The notes beneath the pieces were generated by a model. It was not told where the DNA came from. It saw only the letters and a program-made list of their open reading frames with translations, and ran no database searches. Of a stretch of DNA of 64,000 bases, positions 18,151-61,811 are shown one piece after another (the first letter of the stretch is position 1; every line of letters starts with the position of its first letter). Position numbers and translations under genes: made by a program. Origin of the DNA: Geothrix sp. (GTDB lineage: Bacteria; Acidobacteriota; Holophagae; Holophagales; Holophagaceae); NCBI GenBank assembly GCA_030681515.1, contig JAUXSE010000020.1:1-64000 (forward strand), in the 5' to 3' direction.

Positions 18151-19719
18151 TTAGATGAGCTTTTCAATAGCGCCACTAATACCGTTGGCAAGCTTCCAAT
18201 GCTTGCGTTCGTCGACGCCAAGCTTTCGACTCGCAAAGAGGATTGCAAGCCGCAACAATGGTGAAGCTCCCACATAGTCATCCTTTATGGCAACAGCCTC
18301 AGAACGATTGCCAGATGAATGTAATGCAAGTGCAGCGTGGCGCTTGACTACCTCAGATGTGGACTCGGAATAAAGCGAGACAATATCTCCCGCGTGATTC
18401 CATACAGACCCTGACGCAAAAATATGGAGGATCCACATGGCGTAGTACGGGGGCGGTGGATTTCTCTTGCTCTTAAGTGGACTAAGGAGTTTTGTCGAAA
18501 CCCTTCTCTGTTCGGCGCGTGTCAGGTCTTCAAACGACAAGACATACTTAGCCATTTGTTCGGCTAAAGGATAGAGGAGTTCTGCATTTTCAATAACAAG
18601 ATCAAGGACCTCGCGCTTGAGTGTAGGTGGTGCCCCAGGGATACGTGGAAGCTTCGTGAGGGCGTATACAACGGCTTCGTAGTCGACAAGCGAAGTGTCA
18701 GCAAGAGATGCTTCGAGCATGCCCTTGAGGTCAGTACCTTGGAGCACCGCCAGAGCTTCCTGGACCTCCGATTCGTTGGGTTCGCCTTCTTCTCCATTTT
18801 CGTACCCGATACTAAAATCACGGAACATGTTTACAACAGTGTCACGGTCGGTGAGTTGCTCTTCATGTCGAGACAAGACCTCAATCTTGTACACATCGAT
18901 CGGAAGTATCTTTGTCTTCGCTGACTGAAGAGTCAATCCGTGATTGGAATAGAGCCATTCGCCAAGACCAAAAAGTACGGACTGCGCTTCGTACTCGGAT
19001 TTGCAAAAGATGTTGTAGTCATCGACCCATCGGACAAAGTTGATGCCTTTGCTCTGCAAGGTGGCATCGACATCGATCAGAATGGCTTCGCCGAGCAAAC
19101 GAGATGCATACGGCCCAACAGGAATGCCATAACTGTTTCGTTCCATTAGATTGCCAATGAGCTTTCGTACCAGCACACGTGCAACGTCCCGGACTCGCTG
19201 ACTTGTCGCCACAGTCTCGATGACATTCTCTAATCGATGCTGGTATATGCGTGGATAGAAATCTGCGATATCAGCCATCGCCACGAATTTTACTTGTGCC
19301 GTTTCGGCCTTAGCGTCTAACTGTTGTCGGTAAGCTTCGTATGATCCTTTTGATCCGTAAATTACTTGTGGCTTAGTAATGTCAGCTCTGTAAGAAAATA
19401 CGCGCTTCGCCTTTATCCCTACGCGATTCGCTTCGATATCGTTCTTTGTGATCAGCACCAAGGCCGTATAGAGCAACAAGTCCTGTGGGTGAAGCAGGTG
19501 CACCACCCGAATATTTGCGCGGCTCTTCGGTGCAAACACCTTCATCACTTTGAATGGTTCATAGGTGTCCAAGTCGATCTTTTCTAGGACATTTCTGACA
19601 GCTGGCCAATTGTTGGCTACGACATCCCACTCAGGTGGATCTGGAAGCATCGTGCTATAGCCATGATGAGCTATGGCAGCGAATGCATTGTCGAGTTCAA
19701 CACCTGTCAACGTAAACAC
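18151..19719 (-). CDS. Reverse transcriptase, UG/Abi (defence-associated) type
   Basis: 522-residue protein from GTG 19717-19719 (GAGG Shine-Dalgarno 8 bases upstream). RT blocks are visible: PKSRANIRVVHLLHPQD (residues 64-80), catalytic block A AMADIADFYPRIY (147-159, Asp150), block B SYGIPVGPYASRLLGE (196-211), catalytic FVRWVDDYNIF (228-238, VDD in place of YADD) and GLTLQSAKTKIL (261-272). There is no maturase, endonuclease or group II intron signature. The C-terminal about 240 residues are alpha-helical and HEAT-like (VVKRHAALALHSSG), the architecture of AbiA/AbiK and several UG reverse transcriptases involved in phage defence. The gene is visibly AT-richer than rho and dusB on either side and is bracketed by related hairpins. 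The defence role is inferred from the family. Confidence 0.85.
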   Translation of the reverse strand: MFTLTGVELDNAFAAIAHHGYSTMLPDPPEWDVVANNWPAVRNVLEKIDLDTYEPFKVMKVFAPKSRANIRVVHLLHPQDLLLYTALVLITKNDIEANRVGIKAKRVFSYRADITKPQVIYGSKGSYEAYRQQLDAKAETAQVKFVAMADIADFYPRIYQHRLENVIETVATSQRVRDVARVLVRKLIGNLMERNSYGIPVGPYASRLLGEAILIDVDATLQSKGINFVRWVDDYNIFCKSEYEAQSVLFGLGEWLYSNHGLTLQSAKTKILPIDVYKIEVLSRHEEQLTDRDTVVNMFRDFSIGYENGEEGEPNESEVQEALAVLQGTDLKGMLEASLADTSLVDYEAVVYALTKLPRIPGAPPTLKREVLDLVIENAELLYPLAEQMAKYVLSFEDLTRAEQRRVSTKLLSPLKSKRNPPPPYYAMWILHIFASGSVWNHAGDIVSLYSESTSEVVKRHAALALHSSGNRSEAVAIKDDYVGASPLLRLAILFASRKLGVDERKHWKLANGISGAIEKLI

Positions 19720-33016: not shown

Positions 33017-33256
33017 AGCGACATCCCCTAAGTTCCTTGAATTAACTTTTTGCTGGGGATGTCGCACTTCCCCTGACCAACGCGTGCGTTGGCCAGGATC
33101 TATGGACATGGGGGCAAGCCCCCTTTGGTGCCCGAAAAGCCATGCTTTTCGGGCTGTCACCCCTCGGGGGCGCCATGCCGCGCCCCCGAACCCCCGGCAA
33201 GTGGCGCGTCTCGGAGTGCCGAAACTATTCAAGACACTTCGGGGACGCGCCACTAG
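33013..33256 (+). mobile_element. CTAG-bounded structured non-coding element, copy 1 (244 bp)
   Basis: Six successive perfect hairpins fill the whole interval: 33018-33028/33055-33065 (11 bp, 26-base loop), 33077-33083/33086-33092, 33110-33115/33118-33123, 33131-33140/33144-33153, 33164-33173/33180-33189, and 33200-33210/33244-33254 (11 bp, 33-base loop). CTAG stands at both outer ends (33013-33016, 33253-33256), and these supply the TAG stop codons of terC and of truB. The interior contains GGGCTGTCACCCC (33151-33163), shared exactly with copy 2 at 54062-54265. There is no open frame of note. Confidence 0.85.
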
Positions 33257-34164
33257 AGCCCGCCCCGCAGATTGGCGAAGGTGCGTAGGCCTTCCTCGGC
33301 AGGTTTGAGCAGGGCCACCAGCCGGCCCCCATGCATCGCCCGCAGGGGGGCGCCGGGGTCGGGAAAGCCTGCGGGCATGGCCCAGGTCGCGGGAAGAGCC
33401 TCGCCCACGGGGATGGCGCGGCCGTGGCTCAGGTGATCGGCCTCTTCATCTGACAGCAGGCGCGACGGGCACCAGGGCAGCAGATCCATTCCGGTGAGCA
33501 GCCGTTCCAGGCCTTCGCCGGGATCCGTCCAGGGGCCTATGGCCGTACGGCGCAGCGCCGTCAGATGGGCGCCGCAGCCCAGGGCGCGGCCCAGCTCCCG
33601 GGCCAGGCTCCGCACGTAGTAGCCGCCCCGGCAGGTGAGTTCGAGGGTGCTGCGCCGGGGCAGATCGTGGGCGAGCCACCGGGCCGACAGCAGGAACACG
33701 CGGCAGGGCTTCATGATCACTGCCTCGCCCCGATGGGCCTTCTTGTAGGCCGCCTCGCCGTCAATCTTCTTGGCGCTGGTGGCGGGGGGGATCTGCTCCG
33801 TCCAGCCCAGGAAGGGCGCCAGGGCCGCGTCCAATGCCCCCGGCGCGAGATGGGCTGCCCCAGCCTCCGACACGGGCGTTCCCTGGAGATCGCAGGTATC
33901 CGTCTCCACGCCCCAGGCCACCTCCGCCACGTAGGTCTTCGGCAGCGGATGCATCAGTTCCATCAGCCGCGTGGCCTGGCCCGCCAGCACCAGCAGCAGG
34001 CCGTCCGCGAAGGGATCCAGCGTGCCCCCATGCCCCAGGGCCAGCGTCTTCTGCCCCGCCTCGAAGGCCCGGCGCTTGAACCCCCGGATCACATCAAAGC
34101 TGCTCTGCCCCACGGTCTTGTGGACGAGGTGGATGCCGGGGGTGGGTGCTTCATGTGGTGCCAT
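33253..34164 (-). CDS. truB: tRNA pseudouridine(55) synthase
   Basis: 303-residue enzyme that makes pseudouridine 55 in the T-loop of tRNAs. The catalytic Asp is in GHGGTLDPFADGLLLVLAG (about 44-62). Other motifs: KTYVAEVAWGVETDTCD, CRGGYYVRSLARELGRALG (about 181-199). The start was set at ATG 34164 (AGGA five bases upstream); a further ATG 14 codons upstream overlaps the dprA-like gene. In most bacteria truB directly follows rbfA; here a two-gene cassette separates them. Its stop codon is formed by the CTAG end of the adjacent element. Confidence 0.95.
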   Translation of the reverse strand: MAPHEAPTPGIHLVHKTVGQSSFDVIRGFKRRAFEAGQKTLALGHGGTLDPFADGLLLVLAGQATRLMELMHPLPKTYVAEVAWGVETDTCDLQGTPVSEAGAAHLAPGALDAALAPFLGWTEQIPPATSAKKIDGEAAYKKAHRGEAVIMKPCRVFLLSARWLAHDLPRRSTLELTCRGGYYVRSLARELGRALGCGAHLTALRRTAIGPWTDPGEGLERLLTGMDLLPWCPSRLLSDEEADHLSHGRAIPVGEALPATWAMPAGFPDPGAPLRAMHGGRLVALLKPAEEGLRTFANLRGGL

Positions 34165-34189
34165 CAGGATCCTGCCCAGAAGCCGTTCA

Positions 34190-35503
34190 TCACTGAAAAA
34201 AACCATGCTGCTTGACTACCCAGCCAGCTGGACGATTCTGTTTTTCCACCACGCCTTCCTCAACCAATCGCTGCAACCACATCCTGATTTGCTGAGTGGA
34301 AACGCCGAGCTCGGCAGATAACTCGGCGTCCTTCATAGGGGTTTCCAGGATCCGGAGGAGGATGATTCTTGCTGTGGCAAAAAGTTCCTCCCCAGGACCA
34401 AGAACACATGGATGCCCCGATTCGTGCCTATCATCGAGACTTGCCATGCCATCCGGCGGATCTAAAAAGAGGCTTTCTGAGGCTCGATCTCCCTTGGCCT
34501 CCTCTTTTTCTTGAGCAAACAGTGGCATATCCAGCCGAGGATCATCTCCGGTCGCTCCCGGCAGCTTGGACTCGAACACCGACATGAATGCCGCCGCATC
34601 CTGCGGATCGGGCCACGGCAGGGCACCCTTGCCGCGCAGAGCCTTCACACCTTTGCTTGTTTCGCCCGTGGACCGGACATACACAGGCACGAAATGGAGT
34701 TTGTCCAATTGCTCAGCCGCGCCCGCCCAGGTTCCGCCTTTGTTGAAATCAGAGTTGACCACCATAGAGGCATCGGCCAGGGCGTAGATGTATTTATTTC
34801 GCTGCATGGCATTGCCAACGCTGAATCCCGCTTTGGGGTCATAGGGCGAGACCAGTACGAGCGTGCCGTCCATCAGCAGATTCCTATGCTCGCGATCCAT
34901 GGCTGTCCTCTCCAGGCTGTCCGAGAGAACGCCGATGGCCTTGCCGCCTGTTTCCAGCGCACCTCGCATGGCCGCCTGGTCAATGCCCTTCGCCCCGCCT
35001 GAAACGATGGTTTTGCCTGCATTGGCTGCGAGTCGGCCAAGGGCCATCGCGTAGTCGATCAGCCCCTGATCCACTTGACGCGATCCAACCACAGCGAGTC
35101 CGCCGGTCTCCAGCAGACGGATATCCCCGCAGCCATACAGGACCGCAGGCGCGTCTTCCCGCAATCGCGCCTTCATGCGCCGCGGGTACTCCGAATCGGC
35201 GCGACTGACCACCCAGATGGCGCGGGCTTGCCAATGCTCGATGACCTGGCTCAACAGGAAGCCGCGTCCCAGGAGACGCTGCAGACGGCTTTCATCAACG
35301 ACCGGGCGGCAGGCAGACAGCAAATCTGAGGTCCCTGGAGACAGCAAATCCGCCGGCTGGTTCTGCATATCTCGCAGGTGGCGGGCAAGGCGCTTGTACT
35401 CCCCGGGGGACAGCAACTCTGCGGACTGGTCATCCCGTCCGGTGATCAACGGCGCCGTGAGTAGCAGGATCGCTCGAGTGTTGAGAGATAGGACTGGTGT
35501 CAT
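34190..35503 (-). CDS. DprA/Smf-like SLOG-domain protein with C-terminal winged helix
   Basis: 437-residue protein. The Rossmann DprA core is at residues about 140-330: [45 protein letters not shown], and a divergent end ([27 protein letters not shown]) in place of the usual RN-x-IIA and SGSL-x-TA motifs. The C-terminus (about 385-432) is a winged helix ([29 protein letters not shown]). DprA binds single-stranded DNA and loads RecA in transformation. This one is divergent and coupled by ATGA to a RecQ-PRTase gene, so a specialised role is likely. The gene is less GC-rich than truB and rbfA. Confidence 0.85.
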
Positions 35504-37578
35504 CGGTCGTGCCCCGTTTGGGAGAGCGCCATTGGCCAAACCTCGCCGCTGCCATTCTTGCGCAAGAGCCACGCGGACATGGTCAGTGTCCACCGTGAAT
35601 CCACCATGTCGTCGACCAGCAACACTGGATCATGAGAGATGGGCTTCCCGCTAAGAGCAAGCGAACCATCGATGTTCCGCGCCTGTTGCGCGCTGTTCGC
35701 CATCGTCTTCTGCTCGGGCCTGTTGTCTGTCTTTTCGATGACTGGATGGAACGGTAGTCCCAACGCGGCTGCCAGGCGCCACGCGAAATCCGGCACAAGG
35801 CTGGGGTGACGAAGCGAAGGAACGCAGGTCACCCAGGTAGGTGCGGGTTTTGGGTCCCACTCGTGAATCATCTTCACGCAAGCCGCGACCAGGTCGTCGG
35901 CAAAGTGGCCGTCCTGGTACTTGCCTTGCCGGACGAGACCACCCCATCCGGAATCACCCCAGATGCAAAGGGCTTTCCCGGGTTCCGCTTGCATATTTTC
36001 CGGAATCCTTCCGGTCAGGCCGTACTCCGGCATGCCGCCAGCGGGCCATTGAAGCCGGGGCTCGATCGGAAGGCTCATGCGGCGCAGGAAAGCGACCGCT
36101 TCCCGGACAATCCCCGCGTCAACCTGGGTCGGCAAGGGGGAAAGCACAGGCGGGCTGACGGCACTTGGACCGCCATCAAGCGCCCTGATGAGAAACCCCA
36201 TATGTTCGCCAAAGGGCAGGCTGGCGTACGCCTGCATTTGCTGATGCTCGGCTCGCCGCAAGGTGGTGAGGCGCTCGGCACGCTCCCAGAACCTCTCACT
36301 CAGGGTTGCGGCCGTGAGCTGCCACTTGCTTCCTTGCTTGGCGATGGGCGCGGGCGATTCGAGAGAGAGAAGCGCGATTGTCTTTTCGATGCGCCCTTTG
36401 CTCAGATTCACCCGACCGAGAAGTTCGGGAACCGAAAGCCCACTTGGCGCCTTTTCAAGCTCATCCAGAACGTGAGCAACCTCCTGCCGTGTGGGGAAGG
36501 CGCTTCTGATGAACCAGTCCGCGATGTCCGCATCTTCTTCCCCACTCAGAAGGACGCCGTAGGCGTGGTCCAAAGCCCGTCCTGCCCGGCCCACCTGCTG
36601 GTAGTAGGCGACGACCGAACCTGGCATCTGGTAATGAATCACAAAGGCCAGATCCGGCTTGTCATAGCCCATGCCCAGGGCCGTGGTGGCGATGAGTGCC
36701 TTGACCCGGTTTTGGAGCAGTGCCTGCTCCAATTCTTCCCGCCGGTCACCTGTTTCGCCCGTGTAGGCTTCGACATTGAAGCCCCTGGACTTCAGCCAGT
36801 CGGCAACCTGGTATGCGTCACGCACGGTCAGTGTGTAGATGATGCCGTGGCCTTGAAGCTCGGCAAGCCGTTCTGCCAACCAAGCCAGGCGTTCGGATTG
36901 GCTGGGCAAACGCAGGGTTTGTAGCGACAGCGAAGGACGGTCCAGGCCGCCACGCGATACCTCCAGGTCAGGACCCAGCACCACCGCCAGATCCTCCATC
37001 ACGCGGTTGTTCGCGGTGGCCGTGGTAGCCAGAAGCCGAAGATTGGGCGGCAAGGTCCGGACAATCCGCTCCAGCAACCGATAGTGGGGACGGAAGTCGT
37101 GGCCCCAGTCTGAAATGCAGTGTGCTTCATCGACCACCAGCAATGAAATCCGCGCGGCGATGCCAGCAAGAACATGTGTGCGGAATCGTTCGTTCGCAAG
37201 CCGCTCAGGTGAGATCAACAGGATGTCGATCTCATCACGGCTGAGCTTGGCCTCGACTTCACTCCATTCGTCCTGGTTGTCGGAGTTGATCGTGGCGGCC
37301 CGCGCCCCCATGCGTTCCGCCGCCGAAATCTGATTCCGCATCAGGGCTAGAAGCGGAGAGATCAGCAGAGTCGGGCCATTACCTCCTTCACGAAGCAATT
37401 TGGTGGCGATGAAGTAGACGAAGCTCTTTCCCCAGCCGGTCTTCTGTACGACCAGCAGGCGGCCTCTGCCTTCGACGATGTGGCGGATCGCTTCCTCTTG
37501 TCCATCACGGAAGGTGGCTCCGTCCCATCCTGCACCGGCCCGAAGCAGTCCTTGCGCCCTTTGGTGGTCGAAATTCAC
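35500..37578 (-). CDS. RecQ-like DNA helicase fused to a phosphoribosyltransferase-like domain
   Basis: 692-residue protein. RecQ helicase core: [16 protein letters not shown] (Q-motif, about 23-38), Walker [11 protein letters not shown] (about 43-52), [17 protein letters not shown] (DEAH, about 148-164), LLATTATAN, and [17 protein letters not shown] (motif VI, about 325-341). There is no RecQ-type zinc-binding Cys set and no HRDC. The C-terminus (about 600-690) has [21 protein letters not shown], the PRPP-loop pattern of ComF-like type I phosphoribosyltransferases. GTG start at 37578 behind GGAGGG. The architecture and coupled DprA-like gene suggest a DNA-processing or anti-phage system; that is inference. 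Confidence 0.88.
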
Positions 37579-37620: not shown

Positions 37621-38022
37621 TCAGTTCCCATCTCCAGATTCCGCCAAGGAATCTGGAGGCCTGGCCGCCCGCTCCTTCTCGATCTCCGACAGGAGTGTCT
37701 CCAGGTGATTGCCTTCTTCCAGTTTGCCGTCCGGGAAGAAGCGCAGTTCGGGCACCCGCTTCATCTTGAGGCGCGTGGCCAGCTGGCTGCGCAGGAAGCC
37801 CGCCGCCCGGCCCAGGGCCTTGCGGGTGAACCCATCCTGGGCCTCCTGATCGCCGCCGTTGGCGGGCAGCACGGTGAAATACACCTTGGCCACGCTGCGG
37901 TCCGGCGAGAGACGGACCGCCGTGAGCGTCACGAAGCCCAGCTCCGGATCCCGGAGTTCACGCTGCACGAGGGTGGAGAGGAGGAAGTGGACCTGGTCTT
38001 CAAGGCGTTCGGGGCGTTGCAT
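37621..38022 (-). CDS. rbfA: Ribosome-binding factor A
   Basis: 133-residue KH-fold protein that binds the 30S subunit during 16S rRNA maturation. Features: RLEDQVHFLLSTLVQRELRDPELGFVTLTAVRLSPD (about 4-39), AKVYFTVL, then ATRLKMKRVPELRFFPD (about 87-103). ATG 38022 has AAGGAAAA upstream; earlier in-frame ATGs add a Lys/Arg-rich tail and are less likely. The usual downstream neighbour truB now lies 3.4 kb away, behind the RecQ/DprA cassette. Confidence 0.93.
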   Translation of the reverse strand: MQRPERLEDQVHFLLSTLVQRELRDPELGFVTLTAVRLSPDRSVAKVYFTVLPANGGDQEAQDGFTRKALGRAAGFLRSQLATRLKMKRVPELRFFPDGKLEEGNHLETLLSEIEKERAARPPDSLAESGDGN

Positions 38023-38128: not shown

Positions 38129-38854
38129 TTGGCCGAGTGGTTCGAAGAGTGGTTTGACGAGGATTACGCCCTTCTCTACGCCCACCGGGACGCGGAGGAG
38201 GCCCGCGTGGCCGTGGGCAGGGCCCTGCGCGTGGCGCCGGAACTGGCCGAAGGCCCCGTGCTCGATCTCGCCTGCGGTACCGGACGGCACCTGGAGATCC
38301 TGCGACGCGCGAACCCCCTGGCCTTCGGCATGGACCTCTCCCGGTTCCTGCTCGGCATGGCTCCGGGTGGTTTGCGGCCCTGGCTCGTCCGCGCCGACAT
38401 GCGGCAGCTGCCGGTGAAAGAGGGCGTCCTCCGCGGCATCTGCCTCTGGTTCACGCCCTTTGGCTATTTTTCGGATGCCGAGAACCGCGCCCTGATGCTG
38501 CGTCTCGGCGCCCTGCTCGAGCCCAAGGGCGTGTTGGTGATGGATTACCTCAATGCCGACCTGGTGGCCCGGACGCTGGTTCCCGAAGACACCGTGGAGC
38601 GCGGTGGCGTGCGTGCCAAGAGCCGCCGTTCGCTCGAAGGCGAGCGCCTGGTGAAGCGCATGGTGCTCACGCGCCTGGATACGGGCGAGGTGCGCGATGT
38701 CATGGAAAGCGTGCGCCTCTACCACCCCACCGGCCTCCAGGAGATGGCTGTCCGCGCCGGTCTCCGTCTCCGCCGCGTCATGGGCACCTATTCCGGCGAA
38801 GCCTTCACCGAGGACAGCCCCCGGTGGATCGGCATCTTCGAGAAGGCGTGGTAG
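38129..38854 (+). CDS. Class I SAM-dependent methyltransferase
   Basis: 241-residue enzyme. It starts AEWFEEWFDEDYALLYAHRDAEEA; motif I VLDLACGTGRHLEIL (about 46-60) binds SAM, and motif IV region GICLWFTPFGYFSDAENRALM and post-motif strands follow. The substrate is unknown. Start: a TTG at 38129 with AAAGG upstream puts the family start at residue 1-2; an in-frame ATG at 38075 would add 18 residues without a ribosome site. Divergent from rbfA. Confidence 0.85.
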   Translation: MAEWFEEWFDEDYALLYAHRDAEEARVAVGRALRVAPELAEGPVLDLACGTGRHLEILRRANPLAFGMDLSRFLLGMAPGGLRPWLVRADMRQLPVKEGVLRGICLWFTPFGYFSDAENRALMLRLGALLEPKGVLVMDYLNADLVARTLVPEDTVERGGVRAKSRRSLEGERLVKRMVLTRLDTGEVRDVMESVRLYHPTGLQEMAVRAGLRLRRVMGTYSGEAFTEDSPRWIGIFEKAW

Positions 38855-38858
38855 GGAA

Positions 38859-38893
38859 GGCTTCAGGCTTCAGGCTCCAGGCTTCAGGCTCCA
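38859..38893. repeat. Heptanucleotide tandem array GGCTYCA, 5 units
   Basis: Five head-to-tail copies of GGCTTCA or GGCTCCA directly after the methyltransferase stop. The same heptamer array occurs at 59205-59302 with 14 units. Confidence 0.9.
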
Positions 38894-40920: not shown

Positions 40921-41982
40921 CTATTTCTTTGCCGTCTTTTCCTTTGGCCCGTTCTGCTCGAGAAGCGGTCGAAGAGGGACAGGTTGACTCTGGCTGTTCA
41001 GCCAGACAGGCAGTTTCAGAGTTGGACTTTCTTCCACAGGTTCGATGCTGTTCTCGACCAGGTTCCATCGGAACTGGTGGACATAGTTCTTCTCGGTGTG
41101 GCGCGTCTGGGTGATCTTCGGCCTTCCATCCGCGCCCCGTGCCTGGCTGGCATCCATGGTGACAATTTGGAAGGCGACAACGGCATTCGGACCCTCGGCG
41201 GGCAGAATCTGAACGCATTGCTTCCCTGGGAATCCATTGAGCACGATGATGCCCTTCTCCCTAGCCATGGCCTTGGCCGTAGCTGGATCGAAGGGCTTCC
41301 ACGGGGTACTGGCCTCCCTGAGGGAACGGCTGTGAGTGTTGTACTGGAACAACCGGCCACAGCCCGGGGCATAGATGATCAAGTATTCATCCTGTGCGGA
41401 GGTCACGAATTCGTCCCAGTAGAACCCTAGGAGTTCCCTGGTCGCAGGATCGGTTGCAACCTTTGGATAGGGCTCGGTAGCCAGGGGCTCCTTGGCTCCC
41501 GGTTCATAGACTTCAATCAGGTTCTTCTCGGTGCCGACCAGAACCACCCGGCCATCGAACCCCAGGTCGAAAGTGGAGAAATCCACGCCTGCCTGAAGAG
41601 CTGTCCACCATTTCTTCAACGATTCATCGTAACGGAGGACGAGATTACCCCTCCGCCGCCAGAATTGCCGGTCGCGGTACTTGATGATATCCAGCGGCCC
41701 ATCGGGATCGGAAACGCCTGGAACTCCCTTCGCTCGAACAAAATGGTGTCCCCGGTCTGTCTGGATCCAGGAAAATACCTCCTGGTTTTTCAAGAGAAAC
41801 ACCTTGCCACCAGAGGCTTTGGAAGCATCGAAACTCAGCGGCGATTCACGAGCCTCCTGGAAGGATTTCACATCTCCACAGAACGGGGAGAGCGCACCCA
41901 CCGGCAGCGGCTGTGATTGAGCCACTAGAGGAATGACACCCAGCGCCATACACAGGGATTGAACAAGAACATTCACTCGCAT
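40921..41982 (-). CDS. Secreted protein of unknown function
   Basis: 353-residue protein with a signal peptide (MRVNVLVQSLCMALGVIPLVA, cleavage near QSQ). The mature part is rich in Trp, Tyr and charged residues, with short repeats of the type seen in beta-propellers (VFLLKNQEVFSWIQTDRGHHFV; GNLVLRYDESLKKWWTAL; VVLVGTEKNLIEVYEPG). It ends in a basic tail (LLEQNGPKEKTAKK). No enzyme motif is visible. It lies 4 bases after a small Cys-rich secreted protein on the same strand and shares its promoter. Base composition is less GC-rich than neighbours. Confidence 0.75.
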   Translation of the reverse strand: MRVNVLVQSLCMALGVIPLVAQSQPLPVGALSPFCGDVKSFQEARESPLSFDASKASGGKVFLLKNQEVFSWIQTDRGHHFVRAKGVPGVSDPDGPLDIIKYRDRQFWRRRGNLVLRYDESLKKWWTALQAGVDFSTFDLGFDGRVVLVGTEKNLIEVYEPGAKEPLATEPYPKVATDPATRELLGFYWDEFVTSAQDEYLIIYAPGCGRLFQYNTHSRSLREASTPWKPFDPATAKAMAREKGIIVLNGFPGKQCVQILPAEGPNAVVAFQIVTMDASQARGADGRPKITQTRHTEKNYVHQFRWNLVENSIEPVEESPTLKLPVWLNSQSQPVPLRPLLEQNGPKEKTAKK

Positions 41983-59204: not shown

Positions 59205-59302
59205 GGCTCCATGCTTCAGGCTTCAGGCTCCAGGCTTCAGGCTCCTGGCTCCTGGCTCCAGGCTTCAGGCTTCAGGCTCCAGGCTCCAGGCTCCAGGCTC
59301 TA
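59205..59302. repeat. Heptanucleotide tandem array GGCTYCA, 14 units
   Basis: Fourteen consecutive heptamers at 59205-59302, mostly GGCTTCA and GGCTCCA, with TGCTTCA, GGCTCCT (twice) and GGCTCTA variants. It fills the gap between the DUF2520 gene and the gene starting at 59313. Same unit as the array at 38859-38893. Confidence 0.95.
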
Positions 59303-60183: not shown

Positions 60184-60927
60184 ATGAGCGACCACAGCGC
60201 CATCGAGTGGACAGACGCCACCTGGAATCCCGTGCGCGGGTGCTCGAAAATCAGCCCAGGCTGTGCCCATTGCTATGCCGAACTGTTTGCCGAGCGGTGG
60301 CGGGGGATTCCCGGGCATCCCTACGAGCAAGGGTTCGACCTCCGCCTTGTCCCCGGAAAACTCAAGGAGCCGCTTGGCTGGAAGAGGCCCCGCCGCGTGT
60401 TCGTGAATTCCATGAGCGACCTCTTCCAGGACGGAGTTCCCGTCGACTTCATCAAGACCGTCTTCAAGACCATGCGAGAGGCCGACTGGCACACCTACCA
60501 GATTCTTACAAAACGCCACGAGCGCATGAAGATCGTCGTCAACACGCATCTTTCTTGGGCCGAGAGCCATGAACACATCTGGCTGGGGGTCAGTGTGGAG
60601 GATCGAAAGCACGGCCTTCCGCGCATCAATTCCCTGAGGGACACCAAGGCGAGTCTCCGCTTCCTATCCATTGAACCATTGCTGGAGGATCTTGGGAGTA
60701 TCGACCTTTCTGGCATCGACTGGGTCATCGTCGGAGGGGAAAGCGGGCCAGGCGCCAGGGTGATGGAACCCGCGTGGGTTATGTCGATCAAGGATCAATG
60801 CCAGGCCAATGGGGTTCCGTTCTTCTTCAAGCAATGGGGCGGCGTTCAAAAGAAGTCCGCCGGCCGACTGCTTCAGGGCCGGACCTTCGATGAGTTTCCG
60901 GCGGGCCGATTGGAGGTCGCGCTGTGA
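60184..60927 (+). CDS. DUF5131 (phage Gp37/Gp68) three-Cys-motif protein
   Basis: 247-residue protein. N-terminal C-x6-C-x2-C (RGCSKISPGCAHCYAE, residues about 19-34) is the radical-SAM-like cysteine motif of the DUF5131/Gp37-Gp68 family; a TIM-barrel-like body follows (RRVFVNSMSDLFQDGVP; ADWHTYQILTKRHERM; HIWLGVSVEDRKHG; DWVIVGGESGPGARVM). The name comes from phage-encoded relatives; no function is established. Its stop overlaps TcmP by four bases. The pair is less GC-rich than neighbours and has its own promoter, so it was probably acquired. Confidence 0.9.
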   Translation: MSDHSAIEWTDATWNPVRGCSKISPGCAHCYAELFAERWRGIPGHPYEQGFDLRLVPGKLKEPLGWKRPRRVFVNSMSDLFQDGVPVDFIKTVFKTMREADWHTYQILTKRHERMKIVVNTHLSWAESHEHIWLGVSVEDRKHGLPRINSLRDTKASLRFLSIEPLLEDLGSIDLSGIDWVIVGGESGPGARVMEPAWVMSIKDQCQANGVPFFFKQWGGVQKKSAGRLLQGRTFDEFPAGRLEVAL

Positions 60928-61811
60928 CCATCGAAGGGAGAGGTGGATACAAACCGACCTATATCGCAAAGTCCGAGCGGGTGCCACGCGAAAATGGCCT
61001 TTATGCCAAAACGAAGATCGAGGCCTTCCTTCGGTATTGCAAGGCTGCTGAAAAGGTCTTCAAGGGACAAAAGACGATTGGAAAGATCCAGCACATCGTG
61101 CATTTCGAGCCCTTCTGTGGCCCTGGCTGGAACCAGACCAAAGATGGTGCCAGCCGTTTCCCGGGCACGCCGCTCAGGGCCGTGCAGGAACTGAAACACT
61201 ACGATACTTTCATATTCAACGACTACGACCAAAGCATCATGGATTGCCTGTATAGCGAACTCATAGACCTCGGGCTCGAAGGCAATCCTGACGTGCAAGT
61301 TCTCCTGACGGTTCAAGACGCAAATCGGATCGTCCAGAACATTGAGTCGTTCCTGCCTCGACGAACTGGAAAAGCGTTTCCGTTCTTGGGTACCGCGATA
61401 GTCGACCCAGAGGATCTCCGGTTCTCGTGGGAATCCACCGAAATCCTGGCCAAGAAACGGCTCGATCTGCTGGAAATGGTCCCGACCAACATCGACCTCG
61501 CCAGGAACATCAAGAATCCGGGCGCCCAGAACTATGTCGGCAACTGGCTCGGTGATACCCCAGTGTCTGATGACCTTTCAGAGGTGCTGGGTCAATACGA
61601 GGAGAAATTGCGGAAGATCTACACCTGGGTGCATGGAGTAAGCACAAGCCCGCTTCCAGAAAGCCACTACATCTGGATCCCGAACCGATACCACCTTATT
61701 TCCGCCTCGCATTGTCCGAATGATGTCGCATCAAAAATATGGACCGGCGAGGTGCTCAGAACGATCAAAAGCACAAGAGGGACACCCCTGTTTGAAGGGC
61801 TTGACGACTAG
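60924..61811 (+). CDS. tcmP: Three-Cys-motif partner protein TcmP
   Basis: 295-residue protein of the TcmP family, defined by its repeated adjacency to three-Cys-motif proteins such as DUF5131. EPFCGPGWNQT (residues about 61-71) looks like methyltransferase motif I. FPGTPLRAVQEL and DTFIFNDYDQSIMD continue a Rossmann-like order, and AIVDPEDLRFSW stands where motif IV (DPxY-like) would be. SAM binding and methyl transfer are therefore plausible but unproven. GTG start overlaps the DUF5131 stop (GTGA); 4-base coupling suggests a complex. Confidence 0.88.
   Translation: MTIEGRGGYKPTYIAKSERVPRENGLYAKTKIEAFLRYCKAAEKVFKGQKTIGKIQHIVHFEPFCGPGWNQTKDGASRFPGTPLRAVQELKHYDTFIFNDYDQSIMDCLYSELIDLGLEGNPDVQVLLTVQDANRIVQNIESFLPRRTGKAFPFLGTAIVDPEDLRFSWESTEILAKKRLDLLEMVPTNIDLARNIKNPGAQNYVGNWLGDTPVSDDLSEVLGQYEEKLRKIYTWVHGVSTSPLPESHYIWIPNRYHLISASHCPNDVASKIWTGEVLRTIKSTRGTPLFEGLDD

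Follow-up and report, generated by a model that had tools for sequence, protein, structure and literature searches.

A PsyrTA (RqlHI)-family gene pair between rbfA and truB in Geothrix sp., probably in place of a restriction-modification cassette

Why do a RecQ-type helicase fused to a phosphoribosyltransferase (PRTase) and a DprA-like protein lie between rbfA and truB in a Geothrix genome, and do they serve DNA uptake or conflict with invading DNA? A sequence-only reading of the window (the whole 64,000-nucleotide stretch of contig JAUXSE010000020.1 analysed here) had described two overlapping genes of lowered G+C content and proposed a dedicated DNA-sensing or anti-phage system. The features concerned are as follows.

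37621-38022, minus strand: rbfA, upstream of psyrT
35500-37578, minus strand: psyrT (rqlH), 692 aa, GTG start; RecQ-like helicase with a C-terminal ComF/ShosT-like PRTase
35500-35503, minus strand: ATGA overlap of the psyrT stop and the psyrA start, from the sequence
34190-35503, minus strand: psyrA (rqlI), 437 aa, start at ATG 35503; DprA-like SLOG/Rossmann protein with a C-terminal winged helix
34164-34190, minus strand: linker between psyrA and truB, 27 nt, with the frame MNGFWAGS and a stop
33253-34164, minus strand: truB, start at ATG 34164, downstream of psyrA

Open reading frames, coordinates and profile matches agree that rbfA and truB are separated by a RecQ-PRTase gene and a DprA-like gene, in the minus-strand order rbfA, psyrT, psyrA, truB, and the ATGA overlap is exact. 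The start of psyrA was moved to ATG 35503 (437 aa); the mechanical ORF of 467 aa had begun at a GTG further upstream. The lower G+C content was also borne out (60% versus 66% elsewhere in the window): the value for the cassette is 0.603 against 0.664, at the 5th percentile of 3.4-kb windows, and GC3 is 0.70 and 0.66 in the cassette genes versus 0.81-0.91 in rbfA, pgk, tpiA, terC and the kor genes. This shift in composition is real but mild. On the minus strand of the cassette, a consensus scan, which is weak evidence, detected neither a sigma-70-type promoter nor an intrinsic terminator.

PsyrT matches the PADLOC PsyrT profile over almost its full length (E-value: 5e-276, residues 1-690 versus profile positions 1-686 of 689). 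Its helicase part contains the Pfam DEAD and Helicase_C domains, scores above the cut-off with NCBIfam recQ_fam (231.7 bits) and resembles RecQ structures in structure comparison. The motifs include a Walker A sequence TGWGKS (K51), DEAHCISDW (D150) and a motif VI QVGRAGR; all of 76 full-length PsyrT sequences share the Walker A lysine K51, the DEAH box (D150) and the arginines of motif VI. The C-terminal PRTase is detected only weakly by Pfam (E-value: 0.21, below the cut-off) and its PRPP loop (DSRWT) is non-canonical, yet this loop is conserved throughout the family, with the acidic residues D656, D657 and D660 kept in 76, 74 and 68 of the 76 sequences, respectively. The C-terminal 213 residues have a predicted fold with a pLDDT of 90. 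Its best structural match is Helicobacter pylori ComF (VIA Z 15.4, 178 residues, 5.5 A), followed by the toxin ShosT with PRPP (Z 12.4, 165 residues, 3.3 A), and both rank above adenine PRTases. The earlier description of this C-terminus as ComF-like was thus correct.

PsyrA matches the PADLOC PsyrA profile (E-value: 8e-137, profile positions 3-394 of 398) and Pfam PF02481 (DNA_processg_A; E-value: 1.9e-36), and its C-terminal winged-helix stretch gives weak HTH matches at about residues 380-425; the sequence-only reading had described the second gene as a DprA/SLOG protein with a winged helix. Nearly all of 53 sequences retain the DprA Rossmann-fold motifs GSR and SGGA(R/K)G, and the relatives with solved structures are DprA and ShosA. 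The score with the canonical DprA model TIGR00732 is about 91-93 bits and does not reach the cut-off of 191. Because PsyrT and PsyrA both have full-length PADLOC matches, the pair is identified from sequence as an intact copy of the described PsyrTA (RqlH-RqlI) toxin-antitoxin/anti-phage family and not as a new system. As expected for PsyrTA/RqlHI, the helicase motifs are intact, the PRTase has an acidic PRPP loop and the winged-helix DprA-like partner lies directly downstream.

Relatives at 82-48% identity are spread over many phyla, the nearest being from Solimonas (82%), Mesorhizobium (78%), Chlorobiaceae (76%) and Pseudomonas syringae and Yersinia (both 75%). In 73 of 80 loci a PsyrA partner follows closely downstream, and in most cases the two genes overlap slightly (1-4 bases, -4 in many). 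Within the genus, the pair is absent from all 46 other genomes; relatives carrying these genes at this site would have counted against the sequence-only reading, and there are none. The sole other copy in the family (in G063) is 67% identical and located elsewhere in a genome whose rbfA-truB junction is empty. This pattern points to horizontal transfer, because the closest relatives belong to distant taxa and the only other family copy is both divergent and differently placed. PsyrT relatives were found on 13 plasmid records and on IMG/VR contigs, and there was no match at an E-value of 1e-60 in a deposited phage genome collection.

The genes surrounding PsyrTA elsewhere include other defence types. 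The 89 genes adjoining the pair in 23 other loci comprise 4 REase_I, 3 MTase_I and 3 type II MTase genes, as well as single genes matching Hma and BrxL-like families and DpdF-type matches. As a control, the 42 other genes of the Geothrix window gave one generic RNA helicase; this control is modest, being drawn from one window only. In the Geothrix genome the pair is not part of a multi-system island: the inserted cassette consists of these two genes, and the other defence-type genes of the window are 15-25 kb away.

Several other features of the window were recorded. A 522-aa reverse transcriptase of about 50% G+C (18151-19719, minus strand) lies between a dusB-like gene and rho; it matches PADLOC Drt8 (E-value: 1.5e-123) and is a probable defence-associated reverse transcriptase. 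A low-G+C pair at 60184-61811 (plus strand) consists of a DUF5131 gene (PF07505, E-value: 1.2e-99; PADLOC PDC-M30B/M41B, 2.5e-104) and, after a 4-base overlap, a PDC-M41A-like gene (3.3e-15), and makes a third defence-candidate insert. A 353-aa ORF (40921-41982, minus strand) lies in a stretch of reduced G+C (about 56%) and has no Pfam or PADLOC match. Short repeats of the CAGGCTTCAGG / CAGGCTCC type occur twice in the window near gene starts (about 38840-38880 and 59211-59260); they translate as RLQASGFRLQ and are possibly an intergenic repeat family.

The comparison of the rbfA-truB junction took in every genome of the genus (47), and both genes were found in 44 of them. They are adjacent in 40 of these (aligned segments 2-54 bp apart), 3.4 kb apart in the present genome, where they hold PsyrTA, and about 2.5 kb apart in the remaining three (G007, G025 and G030). 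The intact junctions indicate that the cassette is an insertion. The latter three genomes have here a type II restriction-modification (R-M) system of two genes, one encoding an Eco57I-like methylase of 491 aa and the other an endonuclease of the BsuBI/PstI type (PF06616, E-value: 3e-59); the PADLOC matches are MTase_II and REase_II. A fifth occupied site belongs to another genus (G055), with the endonuclease directly before truB and the methylase directly after rbfA on a different contig. All four R-M copies found by an endonuclease search among 77 family genomes occupy the rbfA-truB site (loci L117, L118, L119, L131 and L165; four species, two genera). No integrase gene was seen in the cassettes at this site. 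Other genera have 22 junctions that could be measured within a single contig, and rbfA and truB are adjacent in 21 of them. Separately, in G069 (contig C149, L163-L164) rbfA and truB are 22.9 kb apart with type VI secretion-like genes between them, as judged by eye from translations; this contig has a short N run, so the join may stem from scaffolding. In an rpoB tree the present genome groups with G034 (empty site) and G030 (R-M), while G007 (R-M) is placed elsewhere; this is consistent with cassettes having been gained, lost or exchanged at the site more than once.

The five occupied sites have a left boundary in common:

37632-37658, no strand: 27-bp palindrome CTCCAGATTCC-N5-GGAATCTGGAG, within the 3' end of rbfA

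At all five sites the last rbfA codons contain the segment GGCCTCCAGATTCC-N5-GGAATCTGGAGA...TGAAAC, an 11-bp perfect inverted repeat with an invariant stem and a variable loop. Of 41 genomes searched, only the four with an occupied site contain the palindrome, each of them once, and it is also present in G055; it had no match on viral contigs. The last ~12 codons of rbfA (PPDSLAESGDGN) are of a type seen solely at occupied sites. Transcribed into RNA, the palindrome should fold into a strong hairpin (computed at about -19 to -21 kcal/mol) at the stop codon of rbfA, and one possibility is that this hairpin affects read-through or message stability. On the other side of the cassette, the TruB N-terminus MAPHEAPTPGIH is an extended start, as at the sites with the R-M cassette (APTPGIH or similar); the extension is common to most occupied sites, while most empty sites have the start M(V/I)E(S/A)GIH without it.

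Because these R-M-type flanks (the palindrome and the extended truB start) remain around the pair, PsyrTA probably took the place of a BsuBI/PstI R-M pair by exchange in the flanks. When the linker at 34164-34190 was aligned with four endonuclease ends, one gave a P of about 0.01 (a single-comparison value, four comparisons having been made); that the linker may be a 3' remnant of a restriction-endonuclease gene is therefore only suggestive. It is also conceivable, though unlikely, that PsyrTA and the R-M pairs entered a permissive spot in independent events with no exchange of cassettes. The weakness of this truB-side remnant is consistent with such independent insertions, as is the empty site of the closest rpoB relative, G034. 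Replacement rather than independent insertion is favoured mainly by the shared left end: the present site and G025 are identical over 44 nt (the palindrome and ATGGGAACTGAAAC) despite R-M cassettes that are only 72-76% identical between species, and searches of the genomes turned up the palindrome at no other place. We lean towards the view that, in this family, the junction between rbfA and truB is dedicated to defence and takes a single cassette: a short palindrome-bounded unit carries either R-M or PsyrTA, is exchanged through recombination in the flanks with no integrase involved, and has its defence genes driven by the transcript of the core translation operon.

How the pair might work can be proposed from its homologues. 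In E. coli, RqlI binds RqlH and suppresses a PRTase-dependent genotoxicity, and RqlH without RqlI leads to SOS induction, filamentation and mutation (PMC4670107). The PRTase mutation D663A removes most of these genotoxic effects, whereas the helicase mutations K49A and D148A do not (PMC4670107). We take K49, D148 and D663 of RqlH to correspond to K51, D150 and D660 of PsyrT, all of which are intact. The related toxin ShosT is reviewed as a PRTase and pyrophosphatase that disturbs purine nucleotide pools and damages DNA, and ShosA as a DNA-binding protein (PMC12593503). Rousset et al. named DprA homologues as the antitoxins of such pairs and suggested phage-DNA sensing (PMC9122126). By analogy, the RecQ-like motor of PsyrT would bind DNA and translocate, and its PRPP-binding PRTase would alter nucleotides or nucleobases on or near the DNA, resulting in DNA damage. 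PsyrA would bind PsyrT, as RqlI does RqlH, and restrain the PRTase, and may itself sense single-stranded or aberrant DNA. Phage or plasmid DNA would titrate or disable PsyrA so that PsyrT halts growth before the invader spreads; DNA stress or aberrant DNA would likewise release PsyrT. In one native host, a PsyrTA had no protective activity under the conditions used (PMC12409345). The locus can thus be read as a horizontally acquired PsyrTA (RqlHI) toxin-antitoxin or abortive-defence pair in an rbfA-truB defence-cassette site, a reading to which we assign a probability of about 0.8, its probable mode of action and the replacement of an R-M pair included.

Two other functions were considered. 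Russell and Mulvey propose that the two proteins cooperate on DNA, and RqlH is present without RqlI in most Gram-positives; the pair could on these grounds be a DNA-repair or genome-maintenance unit that benefits the host, with toxicity a by-product of PsyrA loss. This is improbable given how patchily the pair is scattered across phyla (its nearest relatives, 82-76% identical, belong to Solimonas, Mesorhizobium and Chlorobiaceae), the R-M genes among PsyrTA neighbours (type I systems included) and the R-M content of the rbfA-truB site in other genomes. A competence or DNA-uptake module, in which ComF, DprA and helicase activities process incoming DNA, has in its favour the PRTase fold nearest to ComF, the membership of PsyrA in the DprA family and a link to uptake discussed by the RqlHI authors, but it was rejected as very improbable, as the genome has its own separate DprA-like (contig C1) and ComF-like (C59) genes, the pair is missing from all other congeners, unlike a core competence function, and the homologous E. 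coli pair behaves as a toxin-antitoxin (PMC4670107). The earlier proposal of an inserted, dedicated conflict- or defence-type unit is upheld both by the congeners' junctions, which show the insertion, and by these separate genes, which speak against a competence operon.

While the family is known, the novel part is an rbfA-truB site that swaps defence types, a modest extra. A non-exhaustive literature search found no description of the exchange site or the palindrome. The site adds a new example to an established theme, that of defence hotspots and replacement, a comparable case being the reported replacement of R-M by Ssp in Acinetobacter baumannii (PMC12421847). It offers a natural case of one defence type substituting for another at a fixed core-operon position with a conserved DNA boundary, and the contents of the rbfA-truB junction in other genomes could reveal further defence modules.

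Among known systems, DpdF of the Dpd 7-deazaguanine DNA modification system has profiles in common with the helicase and part of the C-terminal domain of PsyrT. Membership was rejected based on an NCBIfam DpdF score of 169.6 of 550 bits, under the cut-off, and the lack of other dpd genes. ShosTA (PDB 8zvb, 8zvc and 9vzo) is alike in its PRTase fold and DprA-like partner (the PADLOC ShosA profile scores 90.7 bits with PsyrA), but it is a separate family: ShosT has no fused RecQ helicase, and the RecQ-type helicase domains fused to the PRTase of PsyrT rule out ShosTA membership. RqlH-RqlI of extraintestinal E. coli (PMC4670107) has the same architecture and gene order, with K49, D148 and D663 conserved in PsyrT, although the sequences are far apart, with 47% identity for a plasmid-borne E. 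coli relative. The closest system is PsyrTA of P. syringae (PADLOC PDLC03928/PDLC03927), with full-length likeness of both proteins, identical gene order and a short overlap. In the P. syringae relative L068, PsyrT is 75% identical and PsyrA is more divergent (57%). Unlike PsyrTA of P. syringae, the Geothrix pair sits between rbfA and truB.
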